In this document: in pieces, positions 16,346 through 21,389 of the stretch
Numbering within the stretch: position 1 is the stretch's first letter
Layout: the number at the start of each line of letters is the position of its first letter
Virus record (IMG/VR): IMGVR_UViG_3300035670_000356
Span: 1 to 47,365 of that record
Source: a virus
Direction: 5' to 3' (one strand)
Length of the DNA: 47,365 nucleotides
Made by a program: the position numbers and the translations under genes
The notes under the pieces: model-generated
The model's database searches: none
Told to the model about the DNA's origin: nothing
Seen by the model: only the letters and a program-made list of their open reading frames with translations

Positions 16346-16878
16346 TGCGAGCCTATACTCCGGGCGGAAGATTTGATTCAGATTTTGAATTAGACTCTAT
16401 GGGCGATGGAATAACCGCTGACCTAACAAACCCTGCTGGTACTACCGCTGAGTGGTGGATATTCGACAGAGTCAATAGCACTAAAGACCCGATATACGAT
16501 GTAGAGCCAATCGGAGGCGGACGCCTCTGGACTGGGCCCTACACCCTATCGGTTATTAGAGCCTCAATTACTCAAGGTGCTACCCCAGTCACTGACCGAG
16601 GTTTCTATAACGCCGATACGCTACACCTAACTTTGAACGTAGATGACCTACGCCGTGTAAGCCCTGACTTGTTTAACGACCGAGGCTTAGTCAAGTCGGC
16701 AATTGACTTATCAAACAGGTACCGCCTTGTTTGGAAAGAACAGGTCTACCGACCATTTAAGACTCAACAAGCTGGACAGGTTTCAGATAGACACACCATC
16801 ATCACCTTAGATTGCATACAATTAATGCCAGACGAGCTTGTTAACGACACTCAGTTCTTGGCGTACGCCCAAGCCTAG
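16345..16878 (+). CDS. Putative head-tail connector or neck protein (177 aa)
   Basis: Start GTG 16345 overlaps the previous stop (TAGTG) and follows AAGGAGG. The product is mixed alpha/beta with beta-like segments (GRLWTGPYTLSVIRASITQGATPV; ADTLHLTLNVDDLRRV) and ends in a beta segment DRHTIITLDCIQLMP. It has no motif I can name with certainty. It is the first tail-side gene after the fibres, and size and position fit a head-completion or neck protein. It could also be another fibre-related protein. Confidence 0.5.
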   Translation: MRAYTPGGRFDSDFELDSMGDGITADLTNPAGTTAEWWIFDRVNSTKDPIYDVEPIGGGRLWTGPYTLSVIRASITQGATPVTDRGFYNADTLHLTLNVDDLRRVSPDLFNDRGLVKSAIDLSNRYRLVWKEQVYRPFKTQQAGQVSDRHTIITLDCIQLMPDELVNDTQFLAYAQA

Positions 16879-16886
16879 GAGGAAAT

Positions 16887-17060
16887 ATGAAGGGTAAGAA
16901 GAAGGTCGAAAAGGTAATGAAAGAGTACAAAGAAGGAACTCTTCATTCAGGCAAAGACCCTAAGGGTCCAAAGAAAGCCAAGAAGGTAACCTCTAAAAAG
17001 CAGGCTGTAGCCATTGCTATGTCTGAGGCTGGAATGGCAAAGAAGAAAAAGAAAAAGTAA
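16887..17060 (+). CDS. Small Lys-rich protein, DUF6496-like (57 aa)
   Basis: ATG 16887 follows CTAGGAGGAAAT. The 57 residues are very basic and contain MKEYKEGTLHSG and KKQAVAIAMSEAG, the pattern of DUF6496, a short family common in phage genomes (G-T-L-x-S-G and QA-AIA-SEA). It ends in a run of Lys. It heads a chain of tiny basic genes and hands over to the next through TAATG. The function is unknown. A nucleic-acid-binding role is suggested by the charge only. Confidence 0.75.
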   Translation: MKGKKKVEKVMKEYKEGTLHSGKDPKGPKKAKKVTSKKQAVAIAMSEAGMAKKKKKK

Positions 17061-17227
17061 TGCCAAAGAAACGTATTGGTCAGTCAGTGGGTAAAGCCCC
17101 TACTAAGGCTGTGAACATTGCCCTTACTGGTAGTAAGTACTCTTCTGGCGGACAGAAAGTAAAGCGTAAAAAGGGTGGCGTTATCAGAAAACCTAAAGCC
17201 ACTATTCGCTACAAGAGGGGTAAGTAA
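17060..17227 (+). CDS. Small basic protein (55 aa)
   Basis: ATG 17060 shares its first base with the preceding TAA and the frame ends at TAA 17225-17227. The product starts MPKKRIGQSVGKAPTKAVNIAL and ends in basic residues (KRKKGGVIRKPKATIRYKRGK). There is no ribosome binding site of its own, so translation by termination-reinitiation is likely. It is probably a nucleic-acid-binding or virion-packaged basic peptide. No known family is recognised. Confidence 0.65.
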   Translation: MPKKRIGQSVGKAPTKAVNIALTGSKYSSGGQKVKRKKGGVIRKPKATIRYKRGK

Positions 17228-17445
17228 TGGCCAAAAAAGAAAAGCCTGCAACCATTAAAGCTGGCGGAGCTCCTCACGTTGTCTATAAAAAAGACAAAAA
17301 AGTTATAGTTGACCACCTTGGAAAGAAGGGTGGCAAGTGGGACAAGATAGATTTAACTAAACATACAAAAGCTAAGTCTGTGAAGGAAGGGGTTAAAGCC
17401 GTAAAGAAATGGCATAAAACCCGTCCGCATAAGAAAGGCAAATAA
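17227..17445 (+). CDS. Small Lys-rich protein (72 aa)
   Basis: This gene overlaps both neighbours by TAATG. The protein is strongly basic (VVYKKDKKVIVDHLGKKGGKWDKIDL, then a KSVKEGVKAVKKWHKTRPHKK end). The YKKDKK-V-IV-DHLGKKGGKWD segment looks like a beta hairpin followed by a helix, so it may have a small folded core. Charge suggests DNA or RNA binding, but this is inference. Confidence 0.7.
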   Translation: MAKKEKPATIKAGGAPHVVYKKDKKVIVDHLGKKGGKWDKIDLTKHTKAKSVKEGVKAVKKWHKTRPHKKGK

Positions 17446-17615
17446 TGGTCAAAAAAGAGAAGCCAGTCTGGGACAAAAAAGACCCAACTCCAGGTAAGTC
17501 TAGTAAACTTAGTAAGAAGCAAAAAGCTTCTGCCAAGGCTAAAGCTAAAGCAGCGGGGCGCCCCTACCCGAATCTAGTGGACAACATGGCTGCGGCCAGA
17601 AAGAAGAAAAAATAA
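17445..17615 (+). CDS. Small basic protein (56 aa)
   Basis: ATG 17445 overlaps the previous TAA, and TAA 17613-17615 overlaps the next ATG. The product begins MVKKEKPVWDKKDPTPGKS, continues with an Ala/Lys-rich helix (SKKQKASAKAKAKAAG), then GRPYPNLVDNMAAARKKKK. The RPYPNLVDN segment before a basic tail recalls short conserved phage peptides, but I cannot name a family. It is part of the same coupled cluster. Confidence 0.65.
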   Translation: MVKKEKPVWDKKDPTPGKSSKLSKKQKASAKAKAKAAGRPYPNLVDNMAAARKKKK

Positions 17616-17716
17616 TGTGCGCTAAATGTGGATGCGGGTGCAAGCCTGGTAAGCCAGCGAAGGGATGTAAGTGCTCATGCGCGACCTGCAAATCAGCCAA
17701 AAAGAAAAAGAAGTAG
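17615..17716 (+). CDS. Cys-rich metallothionein-like mini-protein (33 aa)
   Basis: ATG 17615 overlaps the preceding TAA. The 33 residues hold eight Cys in a C-x2-C-x-C-x-C and C-x-C-x-C-x2-C arrangement (CAKCGCGC near the start, CKCSCATC near residue 18-25), then a Lys tail. Paired C-x-C clusters of this density are typical of metallothionein-like metal binders. No disulfide-exporting signal peptide is present, so metal binding in the cytoplasm or the virion is more likely than disulfides. The stop at 17714 lies in an A/G-rich run, and the -1 frame continues into a second Cys cluster (see 17677-17772). Confidence 0.6.
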   Translation: MCAKCGCGCKPGKPAKGCKCSCATCKSAKKKKK

Positions 17717-17772
17717 TTTGCGGGTGCGGTAACTGCGCTTGCGGAAAGGACAACAATGGCCAAAACTCCTAG
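17677..17772 (+). other. Minus-one-frame Cys-rich extension of the metallothionein-like gene
   Basis: In the -1 frame relative to the gene at 17615, an open frame runs past the stop at 17714 and encodes a VVCGCGNCACG segment with four more Cys, ending at TAG 17770-17772. The two frames meet within AAAAAGAAAAAG at 17699-17710, which contains A-AAG repeats able to slip by -1. A shift there would give one ~52-residue protein with twelve Cys. An independent start at ATG 17677 would also read this segment but has only a weak upstream site. A one-base assembly error is the main alternative. Confidence 0.4.
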
Positions 17773-18049
17773 CTTTATGAAGGGCAAGTATACAAAGTCT
17801 AAGGACGAGAAGATGGATGCTCGCCTTACTAAAAAGGCTGGCCTAGATAAAGAAGACAAAGAAAAGTTTGAAAAGATGGACAAGGCTCACGGCAAGAAAA
17901 AGAAGCCTAAGACCATTGCTGAAGATAAGAAAATAGACACAGCTCTTATCAAGAAGATTAAAGCCAAGGCTAAAGCCCATGAGAAAAAAGAAGGTAAAAA
18001 GGGCGAAGAGGCTGAGGAAAAACGAGAAAAGAAGAAGGAAAAGAAGTAA
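17756..18049 (+). CDS. Lys/Glu-rich small protein (97 aa)
   Basis: ATG 17756 follows AAAGGAC. The product starts MAKTPSFMKGKYTKSKDEKMDARLTKKAGL and then becomes a highly charged Lys/Glu/Ala helix with a KKEKK end, probably a long single helix or disordered. The motif KMDARLTKKAGLDKEDKEKFEKMDKAH suggests a small folded N-terminal part. It closes the cluster of basic mini-genes and is followed at once by a strong terminator. Possible roles are a nucleoid-like DNA-condensing protein or an internal virion protein; neither is shown. Confidence 0.65.
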   Translation: MAKTPSFMKGKYTKSKDEKMDARLTKKAGLDKEDKEKFEKMDKAHGKKKKPKTIAEDKKIDTALIKKIKAKAKAHEKKEGKKGEEAEEKREKKKEKK

Positions 18050-18082
18050 AGCTTGGGCCCCCGAAAGGGGGCCTTTTGCTTT
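18048..18082 (+). terminator. Strong, possibly bidirectional intrinsic terminator
   Basis: GGCCCCC at 18056-18062 and GGGGGCC at 18067-18073 form a 7-bp GC stem with a GAAA tetraloop, followed by TTTT at 18074-18077. Outside the stem AAAGC (18048-18052) and GCTTT (18078-18082) are also complementary, so it may work on both strands. It ends the mini-gene operon. Confidence 0.9.
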
Positions 18083-18092
18083 ATTATTGAAC

Positions 18093-18111
18093 TGGTTCCA
18101 TGCGGGAACCA
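18093..18111 (+). other. Small inverted repeat downstream of the terminator
   Basis: TGGTTCC (18093-18099) and GGAACCA (18105-18111) form a perfect 7-bp inverted repeat with a 5-base spacer. It lies in the 109-base gap between the terminator and the next gene, where a promoter for the tail operon would be expected. It could be an operator or an RNA hairpin. I see no clear -35/-10 pair in this gap. Confidence 0.4.
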
Positions 18112-18158
18112 AAGCTGTACCCCTGCGTTTGACCTTGATACTCCACTAGGAGCTTGCC

Positions 18159-18332
18159 GTGCCCTACTTGTTTGAAGATAAGTACCGAAAGGTATCGGAG
18201 CCTACTGAGGCGGATTTTGCCCGTGGCTTAGCCGATAGCAATGCCGAAAAAACACGCAAAGGTACGCAGAACTTTTTAGCAGGGCTGGTAGTGGGTATCT
18301 TGTCAGCACGCACGGGAAAACGGCGTAGATGA
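18159..18332 (+). CDS. Small hypothetical protein (57 aa)
   Basis: GTG 18159 lies seven bases after AGGAG (18147-18151), a good ribosome binding site, and the frame runs to TGA 18330-18332, overlapping the next start. The product begins MPYLFEDKYRKVSEPTEADF and ends with a short hydrophobic stretch (FLAGLVVGILSA, 12 residues) and a basic tail (RTGKRRR). The hydrophobic part is too short for a certain membrane helix. It is the first gene of the tail operon after the terminator. The role is unknown. Confidence 0.65.
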   Translation: MPYLFEDKYRKVSEPTEADFARGLADSNAEKTRKGTQNFLAGLVVGILSARTGKRRR

Positions 18333-18646
18333 TTAATGACGTTCTCTCTAGCTCACTAAAGAAGCTAACAAAAACACTTACAGCGGATATCCGCAAAGAC
18401 GCCCTTATTGCTGGGTGGCCTGTGGCATTGGCCGACTCCTTGTCTGTAAAGATTGAGCGCAACTCCCTATCGGTTGAGTACCCAGAAGACTTTTCTCAAA
18501 AGATTGAAGACCTTGAGTATGGCGACGGCATGTCTACACCTAGACCTGTGCTACGCCGGTTTGCCTCTAAGCATAAGTTGAAACTGAAGAATGACATTAC
18601 TGAGGCGAGCGCCGACTGGTTGTTTGAAGAAGGGATACTTCCATGA
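18329..18646 (+). CDS. Hypothetical neck-region protein (105 aa)
   Basis: ATG 18329 overlaps the previous stop and its end overlaps the next start (ATGA), so it is translationally coupled on both sides. The N-terminal half is helical and basic (LSSSLKKLTKTLTADIRKDALIAGWP), followed by a strand pair (LSVKIERNSLSVEYPE) and DLEYGDGMSTPRPVLRRF, a turn rich in Gly and Pro. Size and location just ahead of the tail terminator and sheath genes fit a head-tail connector or minor tail protein. I do not recognise the family. Confidence 0.6.
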   Translation: MINDVLSSSLKKLTKTLTADIRKDALIAGWPVALADSLSVKIERNSLSVEYPEDFSQKIEDLEYGDGMSTPRPVLRRFASKHKLKLKNDITEASADWLFEEGILP

Positions 18647-19292: not shown

Positions 19293-20780
19293 ATGGCATA
19301 CTTACGGCCAGGAGTATATGTTGAGGAAACCCTCAACCCTATTCCGCCTGTCGTAGGCGCTAATGCAACATCTGTTGCTGCTTTTCTTGGCGCTGCCGAC
19401 AAGGGTCCTCTAAACCCAACACTTGTGACTTCGTGGACTCAGTACACAAGCCTTTACGGTTCATGGGGCACAGAAAACACTCTCACAACCGCTGTCTACC
19501 TTTTCTTTGCAAATGGTGGAAATCAAGCGTACATAAAGAGAGTTCCAGGTGCAGGCGCATCATCCGCTACTAGAGTGTTTGATGACCGTTCTGTATCTAC
19601 TGACCCAACTCTTGCTCTTACCGCTTCAAGCGTAGGAACATGGGGCAATTCAGTTTATATAACAATCACTAACTCCACATTAGCTGACCACTTTGATGTG
19701 ACTGTCTTCTATGGAGGAACTGGAGCTGCAAACGTAGTTGAGCGTTTTACTGACCTCAACATGACAGCTTCTAGCCCACGTTACGCAGTGAGCGTAATTA
19801 ACGCAGGCTCTACTTATGTACAAGCATCAGACGAAGGCTCAACAGCTACCGGTGGAACAAGAAACCCATCTGTAGTTTCTCTAGAGCCTCTAGCTGGTGG
19901 CGCAAACGGCTCAGCTGTAACAGAAAGCGATATCGCTAACTCTGCTGTAGCCCTAGACACAGTTACAGAATCACTAGTACTAAACGCTCCTGGAGTTACA
20001 ACCTCAGCAGCTGTAAACGTACTACTCTCATACGCTGAAGGTCGCGACGATGTGTTCATAGTTATTGACGCTATTAACGACACCGTTGCTAACCAGATTG
20101 TTAGAGCAGCAGCTTACACAGCTAGCTCACTAGGTGCGGTTTACTATCCAAACCTAACAATTCCAAGCCCTACCTCAACAGCTGCAGGAGCAACAGTTAC
20201 TGCAAACGTTGGTGGAGCTATCGTTGGACAGTTCATGTCTACAGATGCTTCTCGTGGTGTCTTCAAGGCTCCAGCTGGTATCAACAACAGAATTGCAGGA
20301 GCAGTGTCTGTTCCTAAGTTAACTAACGCAAACTTGGACGCTATGAACTCCGCGTCTGCGCCGGTTAATGCGATTCGTTATATCCCAGGCAGCGGAATTG
20401 TAGTAATGGGCGCTCGTACCCTTAAAGCAGGGTATGCAGACCGTTACGTCCCAGTTCGTCGTTCCCTCATTTACCTACGCAAGGCTTTGACTGACCTCAC
20501 AACCTTCGCAGTATTTGAGCCAAACGATGCTGTGCTCTGGCGAACAATTAATTCCACGGTATCAACCTTCTTGACAGATTTCTGGTCACAAGGCGGTCTT
20601 CGTGGAGCAACTCCAGCCGAAGCGTTCTTCGTTAAGTGCGACTCCGACACCAACCCATTGATTAAGATTGAAAATGGAGAGGTAAACATTGAAGTCGGTG
20701 TAGCCCTACAACGCCCAGCTGAATTCGTCATTATTAAAATCGGTCAATACGACGGTGGAACAACCGTCTCAGTGGCGTAA
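19293..20780 (+). CDS. Tail sheath protein (495 aa)
   Basis: The start follows AAGGAGAAAACC. The N-terminus MAYLRPGVYVEE-x-x-NPIPP and VAAFLGAADKGP are hallmarks of contractile tail sheath proteins, as are the FFANGGNQAYIKRV segment near residue 75 and the C-terminal domain with YVPVRRSLIYLRKAL, NDAVLWRTINSTVSTFL, SQGGLRGATPAEAFFVKCD and VGVALQRPAEFVIIKIGQ. The length is in the normal range. The C-terminal arms interlock neighbouring subunits and drive contraction. It proves a myovirus-type tail and is followed at once by the tube gene. Confidence 0.97.
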   Translation: MAYLRPGVYVEETLNPIPPVVGANATSVAAFLGAADKGPLNPTLVTSWTQYTSLYGSWGTENTLTTAVYLFFANGGNQAYIKRVPGAGASSATRVFDDRSVSTDPTLALTASSVGTWGNSVYITITNSTLADHFDVTVFYGGTGAANVVERFTDLNMTASSPRYAVSVINAGSTYVQASDEGSTATGGTRNPSVVSLEPLAGGANGSAVTESDIANSAVALDTVTESLVLNAPGVTTSAAVNVLLSYAEGRDDVFIVIDAINDTVANQIVRAAAYTASSLGAVYYPNLTIPSPTSTAAGATVTANVGGAIVGQFMSTDASRGVFKAPAGINNRIAGAVSVPKLTNANLDAMNSASAPVNAIRYIPGSGIVVMGARTLKAGYADRYVPVRRSLIYLRKALTDLTTFAVFEPNDAVLWRTINSTVSTFLTDFWSQGGLRGATPAEAFFVKCDSDTNPLIKIENGEVNIEVGVALQRPAEFVIIKIGQYDGGTTVSVA

Positions 20781-20792
20781 GGAGAATAATCA

Positions 20793-21389
20793 ATGGCTAC
20801 TAGCAATATCTCGCGTTTTTCTAAGCTCGCAACAGACCCGTTGCGCAGTTTTAGATTCTACGCAGAATTTACGCCAGCTGAAACAGCTGCGTATGCGGGG
20901 AACAATAACTTCACCAAGTTTACTGGTGGGTTTACTAATATCTCGGGTTTATCAATTAACACCCAGAGCATTGGATACCGCGAAGGTGGATACAACACTA
21001 CTCTGCACCAGATTCCAGGGATGACCACCTTCTCCCCAGTTTCTTTCCAACGCGGAACTCTCTTCGGAGAAGACCAAGCTATCAAGTGGATGCGCGGCCT
21101 CTTTGCTGCTGCTGCCGGAGACGGAATTGCAGTAACACCAGATGCAAGCTCATTCCGCTGCAACGTTAACATCTGGGTTCTAGACCACCCTATTGCAGAC
21201 CAGGGCGAGAACGCGTTTAAGATGCGGTTCAAGATTCACAACGCTTGGATTAGCAGCCTTAGCTACTCAGACCTCAATGCAACAGACAACCAAATCTTGT
21301 TCGAGACAATGCAGCTCGTACATGAGGGTCTATCGGTATCCTTTACCGACTCAGCAGGAAATCCTTTAGCAAGTCAGGCAAAGGGATAA
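20793..21389 (+). CDS. Tail tube protein (198 aa)
   Basis: The sequence DPLRSFRFYAEF near the start and FTNISGLSINTQSIGYREGGYNT, TFSPVSFQRGTLFGEDQAIKWM and a late LNATDNQILFETMQLVHEGLSVSF match the T4 gp19-like tube family, whose members form the hexameric inner tube. The length of 198 residues is normal. It directly follows the sheath gene with GGAGAATAATC upstream of ATG 20793, the usual order in contractile phages. Confidence 0.95.
   Translation: MATSNISRFSKLATDPLRSFRFYAEFTPAETAAYAGNNNFTKFTGGFTNISGLSINTQSIGYREGGYNTTLHQIPGMTTFSPVSFQRGTLFGEDQAIKWMRGLFAAAAGDGIAVTPDASSFRCNVNIWVLDHPIADQGENAFKMRFKIHNAWISSLSYSDLNATDNQILFETMQLVHEGLSVSFTDSAGNPLASQAKG

Follow-up and report, generated by a model that had tools for sequence, protein, structure and literature searches.

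Metallothioneins are small proteins with cysteines in CxC and CxxC spacing. An ORF of 33 residues (ORF1) in the window (here, the whole analyzed stretch of 47,365 nucleotides, an IMG/VR virus record) resembles them in its small size, its 8 Cys, and its CxC and CxxC spacing; it differs from them in its Lys tail, and neither ORF1 nor a hypothetical fusion of it with a Cys cluster past its stop matched Pfam or PHROGs at E values up to 1. Among the open-licence papers listed, none dealt with metallothionein-like genes in phages of this kind. Translationally coupled tandem genes, joined by TAATG, ATGA, or GTGA overlaps, correspond to the cassette leading up to ORF1 and to most of its relatives but differ from the -1 frame cluster behind ORF1, which lacks a canonical start at the overlap. 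In viral overprinting, or overlapping genes with internal starts, a second frame is entered by a start inside another gene (PMC8227390, in excerpt), as may be the case here; both partners here are tiny Cys-rich peptides, and the -1 kind is not de novo, because it occurs elsewhere as a stand-alone gene. Genes with -1 frameshifts, such as dnaX (PMC3711429, in excerpt), Escherichia coli copA (PMC5009743, in excerpt), and Bacillus subtilis cdd, share with this locus an extension in the -1 frame, and the window also has the Lys codons and a hairpin, but the slip site and hairpin are not conserved among the relatives. Finally, Streptomyces sigR, with its GTC start (PMC5472188, in excerpt), is likewise an actinobacterial case of coupled genes with a noncanonical start, although it is a chromosomal sigma factor gene and the codon here would be GTA.

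The window belongs to a contractile-tailed phage (sheath at 19293 to 20780, tube at 20793 to 21389), and the mini-gene cassette adjoins the phage tail genes. An actinobacterial host, as implied in an earlier note on this DNA, is likely, because the window's DNA polymerase has its best matches in Streptomyces phages (about 40%) and its glycosyltransferase is 63% identical to that of Actinomycetia phage DSL-LC01, which is of lake origin. In DSL-LC01 (L442, OQ999401.1; loci are given by L numbers), the related glycosyltransferase adjoins genes annotated as tryptophan halogenase and WhiB, with no annotated mini-gene cassette beside it, and a Cys-cluster pattern gave one match in that genome, which was not above the backwards control.

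Three Lys-rich mini-genes (starting at 17060, 17227, and 17445) precede ORF1 and are chained to it by TAATG overlaps (Table 1). The ORF1 TAG is followed by TT, whereas in other such genes the stop runs into a start codon, as TAATG or TAGTG. The earlier note had described a 33-residue product with eight Cys, a third cluster (VVCGCGNCACG) in the -1 frame past its stop, and an A/G-rich run shortly before that stop; the first was reproduced base-exact, the second lies in the ORF ending at 17772, and the run is where it was placed. The six frames of the window hold a single CxCxxCxC, the one at this site, and 20 first-order Markov sequences of window length gave a total of one. A four-base Shine-Dalgarno motif was found within 20 bases of 31 of the 47 gene starts listed in the window, and 17060 and 17615, two of the five starts in the cassette, are without one. 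Terminator-like sites in the scanned stretch numbered 3, with 3.1 expected by chance. An Rfam search of 16800 to 18400 returned nothing at an E value of 0.5, the DNA of 17000 to 18400 had no match in phage records, and tblastn of the 56-aa gene against phages had none either, to which the BLAST low-complexity filter may contribute.

Table 1. Features of the mini-gene cassette and the -1 frame ORF, in window coordinates
Feature	Position	Strand	Basis and remarks
Lys-rich gene, 55 aa, first of the tandem mini-gene cassette	17060..17227	+	ORF list, sequence; TAATG is the overlap of stop and next ATG; no Pfam or PHROGs match at E up to 1
Lys-rich gene, 72 aa	17227..17445	+	ORF list, sequence; TAATG overlap to the following gene; no match in PHROGs search at E 0.01
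56-aa gene, PHROG 34011 (unknown function)	17445..17615	+	phrog_34011, E 2.6e-19; TAATG overlap with ORF1
ORF1, metallothionein-like peptide, 33 aa, 8 Cys, Lys tail	17615..17716	+	ORF list, translation (MCAKCGCGCKPGKPAKGCKCSCATCKSAKKKKK); 85 distinct ORF1-type genes among fetched viral contigs
AAGGGA, possible Shine-Dalgarno motif for an internal -1 start	17660..17665	+	5 bases to GTG 17671, 11 to ATG 17677; sequence, relatives and controls
-1 frame ORF, candidate starts GTG 17671 (33 aa) and ATG 17677 (31 aa)	17671..17772	+	Translation (VLMRDLQISQKEKEVVCGCGNCACGKDNNGQNS), adds 4 Cys; holds the third Cys cluster; ORF1 stop without start codon
AAAAAGAAAAAG, possible slip site, frame-0 codons AAA AAG AAA AAG	17699..17710	+	Sequence; absent from six relatives
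TAG, ORF1 stop	17714..17716	+	Sequence; -1 frame across TAG reads GTA GTT TGC
Hairpin, 13-bp stem, 3-base loop	17717..17745	+	Fold; six bases past the second AAAAAG; not conserved
Third Cys cluster CGCGNCAC, -1 frame	17719..17742	+	Sole CxCxxCxC of the window's six frames; recurs in relatives
Lys-rich gene, 97 aa	17756..18049	+	ORF list; first 17 bases overlap the -1 ORF; AAAGGA at 17745-17750, within the -1 ORF, lies ahead of it; relatives in 44 loci
Intrinsic terminator-like hairpin 3' of the cassette	18055..18074	+	Position past the last gene is the only support

ORFs related to ORF1 were collected by pattern and via neighbor genes, so that the loci are not a random sample; two pattern scans of viral contigs gave at least 119 stretches each, and further members exist. 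Among the fetched loci, 310 ends of Cys-containing, Lys-rich mini-ORFs were interrogated for a following frame that carries three or more Cys. Such frames with a start codon lay in -1 in 72 cases, in frame 0 in 8, and in +1 once; those without a start lay in -1 in 7 cases, in +1 in 7, and in frame 0 once (L215). Five of the start-less +1 frames have an ATG 5 to 11 bases before the stop, L117 has one 38 bases before it, and L355, which has none, looks like chance. In other relatives, the third cluster forms a tiny independent gene that has a start codon of its own (MPECKCGNCGCGKKDPNG in L100, 18 aa; MPECKCQNCTCGKGGSNGSQG in L132, 21 aa), placed at the preceding gene's stop or close to it. The first codons of 206 ORF1-type entries were ATG (193), GTG (7), ATC (3), and ATT (1); the remaining two entries, with GCT and ACT, resemble antisense frames that are open by chance. 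The ATC codons are in L328 (5107 to 5112), L381 (1436 to 1441), and L395 (3384 to 3389, reverse complement), and the ATT codon is in L117 (4564 to 4569), which also has an in-frame ATG further upstream; these entries suggest near-cognate starts. Searches by tblastn with three Cys-rich queries (a 58-aa relative, a 46-aa relative, and the hypothetical 52-aa fusion) gave no matches in 50,697 phage records when the low-complexity filter was active. In genome_contigs, the exact DNA pattern of ORF1 had four unrelated matches, none with an N-terminal Cys cluster and a Lys tail.

The start-less third cluster in -1, defined by the absence of ATG, GTG, and TTG from the ORF1 stop to the first Cys, was found in 7 of the 85 distinct ORF1-type genes of the fetched viral contigs (the window, L020, L324, L333, L348, L426, and L428). 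One further gene (L248) has the same layout with GTG at the stop in a GTGA overlap, and the other 77, which have other sequence in that position, served as controls. The -1 sequence behind ORF1 is VVCGCGNCACG in the window, VSTCACGGCGCG in both L020 and L333, VTCKCGNCSCG in L324, VTCGCGGCTCQ in L348 and L426, and VENTTCKCGSGCC in L428. A canonical start at the stop overlap is absent in all seven, and the window reads GTA GTT there. The cluster thus retains its frame and Cys pattern in the absence of the start that the family normally has there. The group comprises two ORF1 lineages, with L020 and L333 near copies. Third-position changes were the most frequent in the -1 core (32 versus 18 and 17) among five of the seven cases; L333, which is identical to L020 in this part, and L428, in which the spacing differs, were left out of the count. 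The earlier note had named unrelated second-frame sequence in homologues as evidence against its reading; this did not apply to the start-less subset, where six further loci carry the -1 cluster, but 77 of the 85 genes differ there. A scan for one narrow junction pattern matched only the virus of the window and L324. L426 and L348 have the same third cluster and the same following gene behind different ORF1s, which indicates that the modules recombine.

These comparisons support the -1 cluster as a recurring coding unit rather than an isolated artifact. Its recurrence in the same arrangement among related uncultured phages suggests a genuine product, reached via an overlapping start or ribosome slippage, and not a sequencing slip. 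An error of sequencing or assembly, whether in the A-run or at the start codon, which the earlier note had offered as an alternative for the A-run, is very improbable. The A-run does hold two runs of five A, and the source is a metagenome assembly, but six relatives have the same layout in different letters, and a second contig (IMGVR_UViG_3300036770_001877, 64,251 bases) is identical to the window at the ORF1/-1 site while differing from it at 7 bases elsewhere over 20,150, although it may rest on the same reads. Six of the seven differences are packed into 67 bases of the tail sheath gene (20306 to 20372); the other is at 17325.

The -1 reading is most readily accounted for by an overlapping gene started inside ORF1, which is favored over -1 frameshifting and noncanonical re-initiation and to which about an even chance is given. 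The third cluster would form the main part of a small gene in its own right, which shares the last part of ORF1 in the -1 frame. Its start would lie within ORF1, at GTG 17671 or ATG 17677, downstream of AAGGGA (17660). The product would be a peptide of 31 to 33 aa whose short N-terminal part is dictated by the letters of ORF1 and whose four-Cys cluster would probably bind metal. In the start-less subset, which lacks the stand-alone start of the relatives, the start within ORF1 would substitute for it. Translation of the -1 gene, its start position, and metal binding by both peptides are what we infer from the letters.

In all seven start-less genes (eight of eight including L248), the -1 frame is open from the K-G-C-K-C start codon/K-C pair to the ORF1 stop, compared with 21 of the 77 controls. 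An in-frame ATG lies in this open stretch in 7/7 start-less genes and in 16/77 controls (Fisher, 5.4e-5, kinship ignored). The cases represent two lineages only, however, and when codons were redrawn from control usage, an open frame with ATG had a chance of 0.13 to 0.17 for one of them and of 0.07 for the remaining one; with each lineage counted once, the joint chance is about 0.01 and not 5e-5. In the lineage of the window, the ATG arises from TCA before TGY, and L428 has further ATGs; in the second lineage (L020, L333, and L348), it arises from AAA before TGY in the motif AAAGGA-5 nt-ATG, which was found in 0/77 listed controls. The window, L324, L426, and L428 have AAGGGA-5-GTG and AAGGGA-11-ATG. 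L248, with GTG at the stop, has no internal in-frame ATG. Several observations count against an internal start: in 16 of the 77 controls, an internal ATG is followed by no Cys cluster; as a Shine-Dalgarno motif, AAGGGA is weak and stands 11 bases from the window ATG; and K-G-C-K-C alone tends to create such starts. AAGGGA-5 nt-GTG is also present in 14 of the 77 controls. Among the 16 controls with an internal ATG, 15 have an ordinary junction start, and L406 reads ATA at that point (position 2569, AAATAAAAAAG), in a -1 frame gene that lacks a start and is not rich in Cys; its counterparts in L330 and L332 (KKKVAFWDTKNP...) start with ATG or GTG in ATGA or GTGA overlaps.

Synonymous differences, counted over 83 distinct ORF1 letter sets (75 of them controls), were lower in the overlap than before it in both lineages (CATCK lineage, 9/66 versus 28/73; CNTCK lineage, 4/33 versus 12/36). 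Control subsets matched for the upstream part were as low in 653 of 46,434 cases for CATCK and in 6 of 92 for CNTCK, the latter a weak test on the smaller lineage. Recombination could also be a source of the low synonymous divergence.

Programmed -1 ribosomal frameshifting toward the 3' end of ORF1, which would give a minor 12-Cys fusion beside the 8-Cys peptide and which in the window would involve a slip on AAA AAG with a pause at the hairpin (Table 1), is rated as rather unlikely. The recurrence of a start-less Cys frame in -1 in seven genes favors it, as does the lack of a start-less +1 class apart from L117 and the chance-like L355 frame. Two AAAAAG runs precede the stop in the window, and its hairpin is strong (-16.7 kcal/mol, z of -3.1, folded within 17711 to 17755), but neither property extends to the relatives. 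In five relatives, the hairpin z values were 0.12, -0.51, 0.23, -0.15, and -1.57, so that of the six folded only the window is strong, and a fold of the alignment had two-sided changes in 1 of 16 pairs. The A-rich slip run is confined to the window, where it consists of five consecutive A, twice, without an A AAA AAG heptamer; the relatives' tails read CGA AAG AAG AAG (L324 and L426), CGG AAG AAG (L428), or AGC AAG AAG AAG (L020, L333, and L348), so that no slip site is common to the group. The CGA AAG of L324 and L426 speaks for frameshifting, since the title of a 1999 paper by Mejlhede reportedly gives it as a -1 site in B. subtilis cdd. A -1 shift in E. coli copA that leads to a putative copper chaperone, as an excerpt of PMC5009743 has it, is a precedent. 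Fused homologues, sought as CxCxxCxC or CxCxGCxC in frame within 60 residues past the ORF1 motif, were found in 0 of 136 motif occurrences (open frames, copies included), which counts for a separate gene and against frameshifting, and a slip near the stop would not require the -1 frame to be open well ahead of the Lys tail. The earlier note had suggested comparing homologues for fused or split forms: split forms exist, with the third cluster as a separate gene elsewhere, and fused ones were absent among these occurrences. Its interpretation is supported in part, by the recurrence of the -1 cluster; the proposed frameshift to a longer form is weakened by the window-only slip run and hairpin, the absence of a fused homologue, and the better fit of an internal start. 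Frameshifting is possible above all in the phage of the window, and the pattern of the group fits an internal start better.

Three other routes were considered and rejected. Transcriptional slippage needs longer A runs, and those here are of five A only. An excerpt of PMC3711429 gives slippage runs of more than 7. Stop-codon readthrough would not reach the cluster, which lies outside frame 0, and a start at the GTG within ORF1's own ATGTG, an idea taken from an excerpt of PMC9841429, leads in the -1 frame to GTG CGC TAA.

Termination followed by re-initiation at a noncanonical codon (GTA overlapping TAG or TAA, or GTT), which would yield an 18- to 19-aa peptide as in the stand-alone relatives, is considered improbable. 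GTA lies across the stop in 7/7 start-less genes, but it is forced there by AAG plus TAR, and the codon that follows (GTT, ACC, AGC, or GAA) is in no case start-like. Coupling of stop and start is the rule in this family, with the 72 Cys-rich -1 next frames that have a start; GTG takes the place of GTA in L248, and GTGA overlaps provide a GTG in both L088 and L300. The near-cognate first codons of the family (ATC and ATT, as counted above) and the GTC start of Streptomyces sigR (PMC5472188, in excerpt) also favor re-initiation, although the ATT case, L117, is the one with an in-frame ATG 38 bases before the stop. Re-initiation further leaves the upstream open frame and its ATG unexplained, both of which are accounted for by an internal start. 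Still less probable is a relic, in which loss of the start codon has left the cluster untranslated: the TAGTT of the window is one base from the TAGTG that opens another cassette mini-gene in L100, but the Cys core is kept in the seven cases while other residues change.

These ORFs tentatively suggest that uncultured phages, probably of freshwater actinobacteria, may carry exchangeable arrays of metallothionein-like mini-genes in which one Cys cluster lies out of frame behind another. One message might thereby provide two metal-binding capacities (an 8-Cys peptide and either a 4-Cys peptide or a 12-Cys fusion), with the ribosome determining their ratio through frameshifting or an internal start, a proposal that remains more doubtful than the internal start itself. 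The family of tiny Cys-rich phage genes has a candidate second-frame product of a kind that rules based on an adjacent start codon miss. If translated, it would provide a compact system for testing whether the balance between two metal-binding peptides is set by phages at the ribosome, and which of three entry routes (internal start, slippage, or noncanonical re-initiation) is used.

Other Cys-rich ORFs were encountered in the same loci. L135 (4306 to 4482) and its relatives encode peptides that begin MCKSCGCGC... and end in LDxxxxGxLEGSDFAALRKKKK with an EF-hand-like loop, so that a Cys cluster is joined to a calcium-loop-like tail; their matches to Pfam Dockerin (E value of 0.047) and EF-hand (E value of 0.16) were both below cutoffs. 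The motif CxCxNCxCGK was also present in other small phage frames (L252, L285 [LTSETVQRITEWIQKAEKSNPDCKCTNCSCGKSEEAND], L288, L297, and L299) and hence may be a portable tag. Cys-filled minus-strand frames in L002, L003, L006, L010, L013, and L015, which mimic Cys-rich ORFs in naive scans, are probably antisense to repetitive tail-fibre genes.
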